Shown here one piece after another: positions 42,379 through 47,143 of a DNA stretch of 50,104 bases. The DNA is taken from positions 1 to 50,104 of the IMG/VR virus record IMGVR_UViG_3300042549_001238; one strand, given 5' to 3'. Below the pieces are notes generated by a model. The model saw only the letters and a program-made list of their open reading frames with translations, ran no database searches and was not told where the DNA came from. The first letter of the stretch is position 1. Each line of letters begins with the position of its first letter. Made by a program: the position numbers and the translations under genes. Source of the stretch: a virus.

Positions 42379-42926
42379 TGCCATCACTATTTGATAAACT
42401 CAGCAAGGAAATGACAGCGGCGAACATTCGCCCAAGAACAGACGCAGCCAGAGCATGGCTAGGCGACAAAATTGGTCGTATGCGCATTCCTTCAGATAGG
42501 TCTAATATCTTAAACGACGCAAGTCGTATCTCACCAAAAGCCTTTATCGGTCGTATGTATTTTTACCACTATGACCCAAAATATAAAAATGTGCTTCCAG
42601 TCTACGATAAGTTCCCTCTGGTAATCCCAATGGATATGTATTCAGATGGATTCTTGGGTCTGAACCTACATTATCTAGATCCATACAGCCGTTTGGCGCT
42701 ATTAGACAAACTCTTGGATTTTGCCAATAACGATAAATATAACGACTCGACAAAATTAAATTTATCATATGACCTGTTAACTCGATCTCGTCGATACAAG
42801 ATGATTGAACCTTGTATTAAACGATACCTGTTAAACCACATAAGATCGTCGTTGATTTATATTGAACCAATGCATTGGGAAACGGCGATTTTTCTACCAA
42901 CCGCAAAGATGGTGTATAAAACATAA
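42378..42926 (+). CDS. Conserved T4-like phage protein, unknown function
   Basis: The product is 182 residues. Notable conserved-looking segments are G-R-M-Y-F-Y-H-Y-D-P-K-Y, V-Y-D-K-F-P-L-V-I-P-M-D and F-L-G-L-N-L-H-Y-L-D-P, followed by a helical C-terminus ending MVYKT. Similar proteins recur in marine T4-like phages near gp4, but I know of no function. Overlaps of one base on both sides show tight coupling to gp4 and the tube-fold gene, so a role in the head-tail junction is possible. Confidence 0.6.
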   Translation: MPSLFDKLSKEMTAANIRPRTDAARAWLGDKIGRMRIPSDRSNILNDASRISPKAFIGRMYFYHYDPKYKNVLPVYDKFPLVIPMDMYSDGFLGLNLHYLDPYSRLALLDKLLDFANNDKYNDSTKLNLSYDLLTRSRRYKMIEPCIKRYLLNHIRSSLIYIEPMHWETAIFLPTAKMVYKT

Positions 42927-43558
42927 TGGCAGAAGAAACTAAACCAGGTATTTTTGAATCCCTACAAAATTTGTGGAACAAATATACAACACCAACAGAT
43001 GGCGCGCAGCAAGGTCAAAGCCTTCTTGGCTACGATTATAACAGTGTTGCAAATCAAAACTTACTTAGAAGCTGTAAGTTTGCAGTTCAATTTACCAGAA
43101 TACCAGGCATCGAGCCAGCAGATTTAAGAAGACTAACTTATCTGTGCGATTCCGTAGAATTTCCTGGACAAACTTTAACTACAACAGACTATAGAATCCC
43201 AGGGCAATTAAAAACCAAAATTCCATATGCCAGAGAACTTTCTGAAGTAACCTTTAGTTTTTATGTTCCTGTAGATTACTCTCCCTACACTTTAATGAAT
43301 GATTGGATACAGTCCATTTCATTATCAACAACTCAAAATCGTTATTTGGATGAGATCGTTGGTTCTATCAGCTTATATCAATTTGCTGATACTGGTAAAA
43401 GTTTTATACGAGGAACACCGTCTAAGAGTATGCAGGTAGATTTGATTAATGCTTACCCATTAAACGTACAATCTATGCCAGCCAACTGGGGTGACGATGG
43501 ATTCCATAAATTGACTGCGAGCTTTTTCTTTGTTGATTACAGAATTACTGAATTTTAA
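42926..43558 (+). CDS. Tail-tube-fold protein (gp19/gp54 type)
   Basis: The product is 210 residues. L-R-S-C-K-F-A-V-Q-F (43-52), V-E-F-P-G-Q-T-L-T-T, and the later A-R-E-L-S-E-V-T-F-S-F-Y-V-P strand are typical of contractile-tail tube proteins, and the last beta strand F-F-F-V-D-Y-R ends the fold. It could be the baseplate tube initiator (gp54) or the tube protein (gp19). It sits before the gp26-type chaperone and tape-measure genes, the usual order of tube, chaperone and ruler in tailed phages. Confidence 0.65.
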   Translation: MAEETKPGIFESLQNLWNKYTTPTDGAQQGQSLLGYDYNSVANQNLLRSCKFAVQFTRIPGIEPADLRRLTYLCDSVEFPGQTLTTTDYRIPGQLKTKIPYARELSEVTFSFYVPVDYSPYTLMNDWIQSISLSTTQNRYLDEIVGSISLYQFADTGKSFIRGTPSKSMQVDLINAYPLNVQSMPANWGDDGFHKLTASFFFVDYRITEF

Positions 43559-43575: not shown

Positions 43576-44331
43576 ATGCCATTACCAAAAATTGATTTGC
43601 CAATTTATGAACTGAAGTTGGTTTCCAGAGAAAACCCTATCAAGTTTAGACCCTTCCTAGTAAAGGAAGAAAAGTTGCTTTTGATGACGTTACAGTCTGG
43701 AAAAGAAGAAGATATTTTAAAGTCTATCAAGCAAGTTATTAACAACTGTATGCTAGAAGAGATCGATATCGACACACTTCCAATTTTTGACATCGAATAC
43801 CTATTTCTCAATATCCGTGCCAGATCAGTTGGCGAAAAGGTTGAAACCTATTTCGTGTGCAGAAATGTTGTTGGTACTAAGAAAAATGAAATGGGTGAAG
43901 ATGAGGATGATGTTTGTATGCACATGATGCCAGTTGAAATCAATGTGTTAGAGATCAAACCGCCAATCGATGATATACCCTCTAAGATTTTTATTACAAA
44001 CAAAATTGGAATTAAACTCAAATTTCCTACATTAGAAAACTACAGATCTATTCAAAATTTAATGCTCGATAATGAGACAAACAATTTATTCAATATGATC
44101 TATGATTGCACTGAGTATGTGTTTGATGAGAATGGAATCTATTACTCTAGCGAAACCAGTAAAGAAGAGTTTAGTCAATTTTTAGAAAGTTTAACTCAAG
44201 AACAGTTTGAACGAATTGCAAACTTTTTTGAAAAACTTCCTACAATCACACATGACTTCGAGCACTCTTGTCAAAAATGTAATTTCAAACACAATCTACA
44301 CATGGAGGGACTCAACGATTTTTTTACTTAA
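43576..44331 (+). CDS. gp26: gp26-type baseplate hub / tail assembly chaperone (T4_baseplate family), short form
   Basis: The product is 251 residues from the ATG at 43576. I prefer it to a TTG at 43561 because TTTGGAG lies five bases before this ATG. The N-terminal K-I-D-L-P-I-Y-E-L and F-R-P-F-L-V-K-E-E-K-L motifs are typical of the gp26 (PF12322) family. Four cysteines (C95, C114, C232, C235) could bind zinc. It ends H-M-E-G-L-N-D-F-F-T. A slippery T-run lies six bases before the stop, and the downstream frame continues the protein (see the fusion entry). It acts in baseplate hub assembly in T4; the context here is that of a tail chaperone. Confidence 0.8.
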   Translation: MPLPKIDLPIYELKLVSRENPIKFRPFLVKEEKLLLMTLQSGKEEDILKSIKQVINNCMLEEIDIDTLPIFDIEYLFLNIRARSVGEKVETYFVCRNVVGTKKNEMGEDEDDVCMHMMPVEINVLEIKPPIDDIPSKIFITNKIGIKLKFPTLENYRSIQNLMLDNETNNLFNMIYDCTEYVFDENGIYYSSETSKEEFSQFLESLTQEQFERIANFFEKLPTITHDFEHSCQKCNFKHNLHMEGLNDFFT

Positions 44332-44570
44332 CCTTCCGTGACAGATCCCTCAAGGACTATTACGGAAACATGTTTACGATGGTACATCAATACAAATACA
44401 CTCTCACAGAACTAGAAAATATGATTCCGTGGGAGCGAGATACTTACATAGGCATGGTAAACAATTGGGTTAAGGAAGAAACTGAGAGAGCCAAAAAAAT
44501 GAAAACTGAACAAGAAGCCAGATTAAGTGCATTAACGCGAAAGCGTAATCAAGGAGTCAAGAGAAGATAA
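43576..44570 (+). CDS. -1 frameshift fusion of gp26-type protein (331 residues, predicted)
   Basis: Reading T TTT TTT at 44319-44325 and slipping one base back continues in the -1 frame without interruption to the stop at 44570. The first 250 residues are those of the short form, then Y-L-T-F-R-D-R-S-L-K-D-Y-Y-G-N and the rest of the downstream ORF (MFTMVHQYKY ... ENMIPWERD ... coiled-coil Lys/Glu end). The join reads naturally as a continuation of GLNDFF, and the extension is a helical piece like T4 gp51-type hub factors. It matches the lambda gpG/gpGT arrangement upstream of the tape measure gene. It is a prediction from sequence, and efficiency is unknown. Confidence 0.7.
44319..44325 (+). 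promoter_or_regulatory. Slippery heptamer T_TTT_TTT for -1 frameshifting
   Basis: Seven Ts are in exact X_XXY_YYZ phase with the zero frame (GAT TTT TTT ACT TAA). They lie one codon before the stop. Both tRNAs (Phe, Phe) can re-pair after a one-base slip, and translation then continues for 81 codons. Confidence 0.7.
44334..44367 (+). promoter_or_regulatory. Stem-loop downstream of the slippery site
   Basis: TTCCGT (44334-44339) and ACGGAA (44362-44367) form a perfect 6-bp stem with a 22-base loop. It starts 8 bases after the slippery heptamer, the usual distance for a frameshift stimulator. CCTT (44332-44335) and AAGG (44352-44355) give an alternative or pseudoknot-like pairing. Confidence 0.5.
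44370..44570 (+). CDS. Downstream frame of the chaperone gene (independent start doubtful)
   Basis: An ATG at 44370 opens a 66-residue ORF (MFTMVHQYKYTLTELENM, then a charged helix). There is no good Shine-Dalgarno site, and the same frame already reads protein-like sequence back to the slippery run. I therefore take it as the extension of the gp26-type protein rather than a separate gene. The stop overlaps the tape-measure start by one base (TAATG). Confidence 0.6.
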   Translation: MFTMVHQYKYTLTELENMIPWERDTYIGMVNNWVKEETERAKKMKTEQEARLSALTRKRNQGVKRR

Positions 44571-47143
44571 TGGCGTTAGCTGATATTGCATCCAGGTTAT
44601 ACCAATCATCTGCATATAGAAACACATCAGTTGCAAAGGCATTGGCTGATTCTGTTAAGATCAGCCTTAAAACACGATTTTCTTTGGTGGGCATGGCTGC
44701 TTCATTAACTGGTTCAAGAACTTTATATGCGATTGCGCAGCAAAAATATGGCATAAGTAAAGAAGAACTACAACAAGAAGAAAAGAACGAACAGTTTAAA
44801 AAATATACTGTAGAATCTATTGCTACGCTGTCTAAACAGATTGCGCTTTTAGAATCGATCACCGAAAAGAACTCAAATATGATTAATTATATCATTAACG
44901 ATTTGGGTTATTTCAAGTATCAAAAACGAATGAATCCAATGACACGTGGTGGGTTTATGGCAGTACAGATGCCAGTGAACGCTAAAACGGTAAAGGGTAA
45001 ACTCCAAGAAATTAATGAGCAAATTCAGGCGCTCAAAGGTGTAAGAGTTGCGAAGGCTACTGCTGAACAAAACAAAATTAATAAACAAAAAGAAAAAGAC
45101 GAAAAAGAAAAAAACAGGGCTTTACTTGCTGCTGGTATTTTAGGAACATTGACTTCATTGGGCGTTGGCGCAGCAGGTGGCGGTGTGGCTGTAGCAGGGC
45201 TTGCTGGCACAGCAGTGGCAGGTGCAACTGCAATGCTAGGGTCAGCTGTTATTAATAAAACAGTTAAGGCACTCATTGGTAAAGCAATGCCAATATTAGG
45301 CACTGCATTTAAAGTTACTGCATTAGGTGGTCTTGCTCTCAGTTCAAATGAACGCGCCATGAAAAGATTGAGAGGCGAAAGGGGCATGGAGCTCTTTAGC
45401 AAAGAAGATTTAAAAAATGAATATAATCCTGGCACATTTGAGTATGAACTTAAACAGCAACAAATTCAAATGAAGAAGGATATTAATGATCTAATTGAGT
45501 CAGTTATGCGTCCAGTTGATAATGCTATAATGTCTATCACTGGATTCTTAGCATTAAAATATGGTATCAATGCAGCAGAATTTCTAAAAGGAAAATTTGG
45601 CAATGTTCCTCGTGGTAGCGGAGTGTTAGGTGGCATTAAAGGTTTGATGGGGATGGGTGCTGCTGCAACAGCTGCTGGGGGTGCTGCCGCTGCTGCATCT
45701 GCTGGTGGTGGTGTTGCCGCAGGGGTTGCTGGTGCTGCAGGTGCTGTTGCTGGTAGAGGATTACTCCCAGGAATGGTTCGCGGTGGAAGAGTTTGGGATG
45801 GTAAAACGTGGAAAAGTTTACCAGAACAAACTGGTGCTCCAACAACAACAGCGCAAAGAGTGCGTAAAAAAGTTCCTGTTATTGTTAAAAGAGGATTGGC
45901 GATGATGTCTGGATTCATCAACAGCCCTAAACTAAAATTTGCTGCAGCAAAAGGTGGCGCTTTGGGTATCGCTATTCTTGTGCCAACTATCATGGATATG
46001 TATGCTGCAGTGGAACAGTATGAAAATGGTAACATTGGATACGATGAATACAAAAATAGATCAGTTGAAGGCTGGAGAACTTTAGTCAATGTGCTTGGTG
46101 TTGGAACTATCAGCGGAGTGTTGGGTGGATTACTTGGCACTGCTGTTGGTGGACCAATTGGAACTGCTGTAGGTTTTCTAGGTGGTCTTGGTTTAGGTGT
46201 TGTTGCAGATTTCGCGATGGGAGATACAACTACATCAGCTGCTGAATGGATATTCCGCATGTTATATAACGGAGAACCTCCTCCTCCGTTGCCTACCACA
46301 ACTACAGGTGAACAAACAACTACACCATCAGAAGCTGATTTAAATGCGTTCAACAAAGTTCAAAAGTTTGAAGGCGTAAATCAAATTGATGGTGGTGTAG
46401 AAACTATTCTTGCAACAATAAGACAAAAAGAATCTGGTAATAACTACAATGCTGATTTGATGAAAAATCCTGCAGCACAAGAGCGTGCTAGAAAGGCAGG
46501 ATACGCAAAGGCGAGTGCCTCTGGTGCATATCAGTTTGTTGATGGAACATGGCAAGGACTCACTAAAAAGTACAACATCGGAACACAATATCAAAGAGCA
46601 GTTGATGCTCCACCAGCTGTTCAAGATATGGTCGCTGCTGCCTATGTAAATGAGGTTTTAATTGCAACGAATGGTGATGTTTCAAAGGTTCCTGTTGCTT
46701 GGTACACTGGTAACATACGTGGAGAACTATCGGCGCAGCAACTAGCAATGAATACTGGGTTGACTGTTGAAAGGTATCAGGCAAGTTGGCTAGATGCTTA
46801 TCAAAAGCAAGGCGGTGCCTCTGGAACTTTAATGGCATCACGCGACAGATTAAATGCATTAAGAAATAATCTTGCTCCTCAAAACAGTGCTGAGGCTGAT
46901 CAAGCAATGATGAAATACTTTATGTCATTGGGAACTATTGCTCAAGTATTGCCTACAGCCACAGAAACACCAGCAGTTGCTGATCAAACAGGTGATGCTA
47001 CATCAGCAGAGATAAAAGCAGAAGCAGCAGTTGTTGGCGTCAAACGAACAGTTGAAGAACTTACTAGAGTTGCACAAGATGTAAAGGTTCTACAACAAAG
47101 AAATAATATTGACGAACCATTCCCACACGTTAGAAATGCATAA
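44570..47143 (+). CDS. Tape-measure-like protein with lytic transglycosylase domain
   Basis: The product is 857 residues. A helical N-terminus with coiled-coil heptads (about 70-180) is followed by long Ala/Gly hydrophobic segments (about 180-230 and 510-550) that could cross the host membrane on DNA entry. The C-terminal part (about 610-750) is a lysozyme-like fold: R-Q-K-E-S-G-N-N-Y with the catalytic-type Glu621, and S-G-A-Y-Q-F-V-D-G-T-W. Location after the chaperone genes and length favour the tail ruler. The muralytic domain would cut peptidoglycan at injection, compensating for the gp5 without lysozyme. The exact relation to T4 gp29 is not clear from sequence alone. Confidence 0.75.
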   Translation: MALADIASRLYQSSAYRNTSVAKALADSVKISLKTRFSLVGMAASLTGSRTLYAIAQQKYGISKEELQQEEKNEQFKKYTVESIATLSKQIALLESITEKNSNMINYIINDLGYFKYQKRMNPMTRGGFMAVQMPVNAKTVKGKLQEINEQIQALKGVRVAKATAEQNKINKQKEKDEKEKNRALLAAGILGTLTSLGVGAAGGGVAVAGLAGTAVAGATAMLGSAVINKTVKALIGKAMPILGTAFKVTALGGLALSSNERAMKRLRGERGMELFSKEDLKNEYNPGTFEYELKQQQIQMKKDINDLIESVMRPVDNAIMSITGFLALKYGINAAEFLKGKFGNVPRGSGVLGGIKGLMGMGAAATAAGGAAAAASAGGGVAAGVAGAAGAVAGRGLLPGMVRGGRVWDGKTWKSLPEQTGAPTTTAQRVRKKVPVIVKRGLAMMSGFINSPKLKFAAAKGGALGIAILVPTIMDMYAAVEQYENGNIGYDEYKNRSVEGWRTLVNVLGVGTISGVLGGLLGTAVGGPIGTAVGFLGGLGLGVVADFAMGDTTTSAAEWIFRMLYNGEPPPPLPTTTTGEQTTTPSEADLNAFNKVQKFEGVNQIDGGVETILATIRQKESGNNYNADLMKNPAAQERARKAGYAKASASGAYQFVDGTWQGLTKKYNIGTQYQRAVDAPPAVQDMVAAAYVNEVLIATNGDVSKVPVAWYTGNIRGELSAQQLAMNTGLTVERYQASWLDAYQKQGGASGTLMASRDRLNALRNNLAPQNSAEADQAMMKYFMSLGTIAQVLPTATETPAVADQTGDATSAEIKAEAAVVGVKRTVEELTRVAQDVKVLQQRNNIDEPFPHVRNA

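Follow-up and report, generated by a model that had tools for sequence, protein, structure and literature searches.

A probable -1 frameshift site in the gp26-type tail chaperone gene of a marine T4-like phage

The tail assembly chaperones gpG and gpGT of phage lambda (Levin 1993; Xu 2004, 2013; reviewed in PMC5009743) are encoded between the tail tube and tape measure genes, where a -1 shift near the end of a short ORF yields a minor extended form. This frameshifting is widely conserved, and a 2016 review listed T4 as an exception (PMC5009743). The tail assembly chaperone (TAC) gene of Pseudomonas phage Adele and the Vandenendeviridae, which precedes the one for the tape measure protein, has also been described as shifting by -1, on a conserved GTTTTT (PMC12846349).

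For T4-like phages, PMC10885494 and PMC12846349 state that the chaperone genes were identified in 2022 by Vladimirov, Gautam and Davidson (Virology 566:9), in a paper that, by its title, proposes that the chaperone products arise by a means other than frameshifting. PMC10885494 adds that in some T4-like phages the short and the long chaperone each have a gene of their own, and PMC12846349 credits Vladimirov et al. with frameshift signals of the poly-T type in the TAC-N genes of T4-like phages.

The window analyzed here is a stretch of viral DNA of 50,104 nucleotides, positions 1 to 50,104 of IMG/VR record IMGVR_UViG_3300042549_001238, and all of its features given below are on the plus strand. 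An earlier note on this DNA, made from the letters alone, proposed a -1 frameshift at the end of a gp26-type gene and implied that such a shift was new for T4-like chaperones. That implication is not supported in view of the 2022 work as described in PMC10885494 and PMC12846349; as far as those accounts go, the T4-like version had been outlined before, and the window holds a well-supported further case of a frameshift already known in tailed phages.

Gene 26 and the junction at its 3′ end

The gp26-type gene (43576..44331) begins at an ATG at 43576 with GGAG upstream and encodes a predicted short chaperone (TAC-N) of 251 aa. Its product matches the T4_baseplate family PF12322 at the level of the whole protein (E 8e-57, profile positions 1-218 of 219) as well as phrog_150 (E 3e-60), both scores having been computed on the frame from 43597. 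The AlphaFold model of gp26 has a pLDDT of 85, and over residues 1-87 its top PDB matches were 3fgx, at Z 7.1, and 2ob9, the tail assembly chaperone of HK97, at Z 6.6, although matches with Z below 8 may represent a common arrangement and the matched part is only the N-terminal third of the protein. The 2ob9 match spans 77 residues and ranked second among 681 chains, with the next rows at Z 4.4 and 3.9. The modeled fold agrees with a chaperone role while falling short of proof, because Z is under 8. Farther along the protein, residues 145-242 (in the frame 43597-44331) gave weak matches to HSP33 (HslO) with E about 0.02, below the cut-offs; this region has a CxxC, and a CPECG motif lies in the corresponding part of T4 gp26.

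The upstream neighbor is a tail tube protein gene by profile (42926..43558; phrog_45 tail tube, E 4e-27; Pfam Phage_TTP_2, E 1.5e-6). Downstream lies a long gene (44570..47143) whose 857-aa product has four hydrophobic segments, matches no family in Pfam, PHROG, NCBIfam, or PDB above cut-off, and, among the neighbors compared, is clearly similar only to its counterpart at one related locus (L006). Position, length, and hydropathy suggest that this is the tape measure gene. Lying between the tail tube gene and the presumed tape measure gene, gene 26 would occupy the place that gpG/gpGT occupies in lambda, and it shares with the lambda locus a -1 site close to where the short ORF ends and, by prediction, a minor extended form; the slippery sequence is a different one, and the likeness is drawn without any claim of sequence homology.

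Read directly from the letters, the zero frame of gene 26 ends ...GGA CTC AAC GAT TTT TTT ACT TAA, so that the protein ends ...GLN-D-F-F-T and the stop codon TAA occupies 44329-44331. The heptamer T_TTT_TTT at 44319-44325, noticed earlier before this ACT TAA end, is indeed present and has the phase required for a tandem -1 slip. It is followed by a spacer of 8 nt (44326..44333), as had been counted, which contains the zero-frame stop, and then by a predicted hairpin (44334..44367). The stem, described earlier as 6 bp, is better given as a predicted outer stem of 8 bp (44334-44341 with 44360-44367) that includes one G-U and is supplemented by inner pairs, with a minimum free energy of -13.6 kcal/mol and a z of -3.04. 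From TAC at 44325 the -1 frame reads on through 81 codons (44325-44567; YLTFRDRSLKDYYGNMFTMVHQYKYTLTELENMIPWERD...KRR), the length claimed earlier, to a stop at 44568-44570 that overlaps the ATG of the next gene, at 44570, by one base. In having a slippery -1 site late in a short ORF, with an open extension behind it, gene 26 shows an arrangement by which a chaperone gene of the lambda gpG/gpGT type is recognized.

The reading that best accommodates these features, and that is very probably correct, is a lambda-type chaperone pair, TAC-N and TAC-NC, produced by programmed -1 frameshifting. Most ribosomes translating gene 26 would terminate at TAA 44329 and release the short chaperone of 251 aa. 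A minority, delayed by the hairpin at 44334-44367, would shift back by one base while the P site and the A site each hold tRNA-Phe on a TTT of T_TTT_TTT, and would read 81 more codons to give a gp26-gp51 fusion of about 331 aa. If the lambda gpG/gpGT pair is a guide, TAC-N may coat the tape measure protein while the extension of the rare TAC-NC may recruit tail tube subunits, and both forms would depart before the tail is completed.

Conservation of the heptamer and the downstream hairpin

Homologous loci were gathered from IMG/VR in six scans, five around gp26 relatives of the window type and the sixth centered on a Salmonella phage of the Ackermannviridae, and named isolates were taken from a phage collection. 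In the first collection, all loci (96/96) had a -1 extension with a T6-containing heptamer. In the enlarged set, 266 of the 267 homologous loci with a detected extension had it in -1, preceded by T_TTT_TTN at the same pair of codons, a count that passes over divergent extensions (Ackermannviridae, PhiW-14, Ps15, Ci1) because the extension HMM misses them; these were inspected by eye. Conservation among aligned homologues, which the earlier note had named as a check, is thus evident, and a chance origin of the signal is ruled out by the recurrence of the same arrangement. Isolate genomes with this arrangement include P-SSM2, S-PM2, S-CAM7, Cr30, Melnitz-3, and PX29, among others. The three cyanophages, P-SSM2, S-PM2, and S-CAM7 (Kyanoviridae), share the window's junction, in the form T_TTT_TTC; their gp26 shares no more than about 38% identity with that of the window, and the locus is recorded in them as two genes with no join. 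The myovirus TAC genes of Adele and the Vandenendeviridae likewise shift by -1 on a T run, but belong to a different phage family and use GTTTTT, not T_TTT_TTN.

The sole exception among the 267 is a contig (L189) with an in-frame gp26-gp51 fusion and a shortened T run, around 2185-2200, which could be genuine or a sequencing error. It is also the one observation in favor of supposing that an indel in the homopolymer, introduced by sequencing or assembly, has split a single fused gene at the other loci. Such an error would hardly place the split in the -1 frame every time at 266/267 loci, across many separate contigs and isolate genomes; this explanation deserves next to no credence, and the number of separate genomes with the -1 split rules it out.

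Codon usage sets the slip site apart. Among non-redundant loci, TTC is never the first Phe codon there (0/91), whereas it opens 47/102 of the Phe-Phe pairs elsewhere in these genes (Fisher P 1.4e-16); the 91 loci were selected for having the heptamer, although every locus of the first collection in which an extension was detected had it. The codon preceding the Phe-Phe pair ends in T at all 91. A requirement for Phe-Phe at the protein level does not explain this pattern, to judge from the absence of TTC at the site and its frequency elsewhere.

The base that closes the heptamer varies: among 144 non-redundant loci it reads T_TTT_TTC in 92, TTT in 42, TTA in 8, and TTG in 2. This variation bears on transcriptional slippage, in which RNA polymerase would add one U on the T run and the ribosome would then read the -1 frame without shifting. 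The window's template, with its seven Ts, could be thought suited to such slippage, but in 102/144 of the non-redundant relatives only six Ts are followed by C, A, or G, and six-T runs are short for transcriptional slippage. The phase of the heptamer relative to the codon boundaries and the hairpin downstream fit the ribosome instead, leaving slippage by the polymerase a very improbable source of the extended product.

The hairpin of the window, which begins 8 nt 3′ of the heptamer, has counterparts elsewhere. For the three nearest relatives, z of the downstream hairpin runs from -4.2 to -5.7, and strong hairpins also follow the heptamer in the cyanophages P-SSM2 (z -3.3) and S-PM2 (z -6.8), with quite different stem sequences. 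Over 91 loci, and among the offsets tested, folding was in excess only in the 45 bases directly after the heptamer, where mean z was -1.27 and 43% of loci fell below -1.5; at seven control offsets that share was 5-16%. The hairpin is not universal, since the median z downstream of the heptamer in these loci is only -0.81. Compensatory changes at columns 26/55 and 31/50 of alignment A3, where both sides change and pairing is kept, provide modest evidence for the hairpin from four close relatives.

Named phages of the Ackermannviridae keep a -1 extension after gp26 without the perfect heptamer, the site being NTT TTC or GTT TTT. In Salmonella phage SFP10 and its relatives gp26 ends ATT TTC, an ending retained in the SFP10-type contigs examined; CTT TTC, GCT TTC, and GTT TTT occur elsewhere. 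The loci whose gp26 3′ ends were considered in this connection (L110, L113, L115, L116, L120, L123, and L124-L138) are mostly Ackermannviridae or close matches to them, and the records of L115 and L123 have no family assignment. The extension in this family may be reached by a minimal T_TTY shift, by reinitiation, or by another route.

The -1 extension and its counterpart in T4

The extension (44325..44570, 81 codons plus stop) belongs to the gp51 family, matching phrog_634, 'baseplate hub assembly catalyst', with E 2e-19. It was aligned with 28 relatives and is 54-81 aa long in 87 complete cases; by this comparison it is protein-coding and conserved.

Annotations imply that this piece is a separate gp51 protein, translated alone after ribosomes reinitiate at the stop codon of gp26 or close to it. 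It stands as a gene of its own in many database records, an ATG overlaps the gp26 stop as TAATG, together with the heptamer, in 18/91 non-redundant loci, and TGATG or TAATG overlaps are present in PhiW-14 and some Ackermannviridae. Independent initiation does not fit the window, because the stop context there is TAACC and the earliest ATG, GTG, or TTG of the -1 frame is the ATG at 44370, 15 codons into the extension; a protein begun at that point would be without the conserved first part. Across the 91 loci compared, no start position for the extension is conserved, and initiation within the extension would leave the codon-level conservation of the heptamer without explanation. A gp51 made only as a separate protein is therefore very unlikely, although the 18 phages with TAATG might make a free gp51 piece in addition.

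Frameshifting into a gp51-like tail is also consistent with the composition of the T4 proteins. The chaperone genes named in the 2022 work on T4-like phages are reportedly 26 and 51. In T4 itself these are separate genes on opposite strands. T4 gp26 matches the gp26 profile over its whole length (hhalign E 3e-16). The FF near its end has the codons TTC TTT and is separated from the stop by two residues, with neither heptamer nor extension. T4 gp51, for its part, consists of a complete PF12322 domain at residues 1-201 (E 4e-52) and a C-terminal piece, residues 206-244, that aligns with the -1 extension of the window; it was the only match in T4 to the extension profile built from alignment A2 (E 1.6e-5). 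By sequence comparison, the extension is homologous to the C-terminus of T4 gp51, and since that protein is a gp26-like domain plus extension, the predicted frameshift product would share its architecture, the short product having that of T4 gp26. The window and the T4-like chaperones thus draw on the same two protein families and have a long form built of a gp26-like part and the gp51 C-terminal piece. This composition bears out the earlier proposal that the '26' and '51' pieces form one system.

Related contigs of 197, 162, and 96 kb, which may be incomplete, have one gp26 and one extension each, counts that are limited by the failure of the gp26 profile (alignment A1) to detect the gp26-like part of T4 gp51. 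The earlier note had expected that homologues with separate genes and no T run would speak against frameshifting. Such homologues do exist, in T4 and PG7, but theirs is an arrangement of paralogues, which leaves the site in the window unaffected. One tentative history, perhaps somewhat less probable than its alternatives taken together, is that T_TTT_TTN frameshifting was ancestral in T4-related myophages, that Tevenvirinae such as T4 switched to duplicated 26 and 51 genes, and that the Ackermannviridae kept the extension with a minimal T_TTY site.

Annotation and significance

Among the named isolate records examined, none has a joined-gene feature at gp26/gp51. Public genomes list 'baseplate hub' and 'hub assembly catalyst' at this locus as two distinct genes, or miss the second piece; in named records, among them L104, L105, L106, L107, L108, and L121, the extension appears as a separate 'gp51', as a hypothetical gene, or not at all. 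A joined feature would be the more accurate annotation.

Judged from the sequence signal and its conservation, it is almost certain that this marine T4-like phage produces its tail-building helper protein in two versions, by a -1 slip on seven Ts. The comparative evidence is strong that a classical frameshift makes the tail chaperones in a large group of T4-related phages, cyanophages included, in contrast to the place of T4 as an exception in the 2016 review (PMC5009743).
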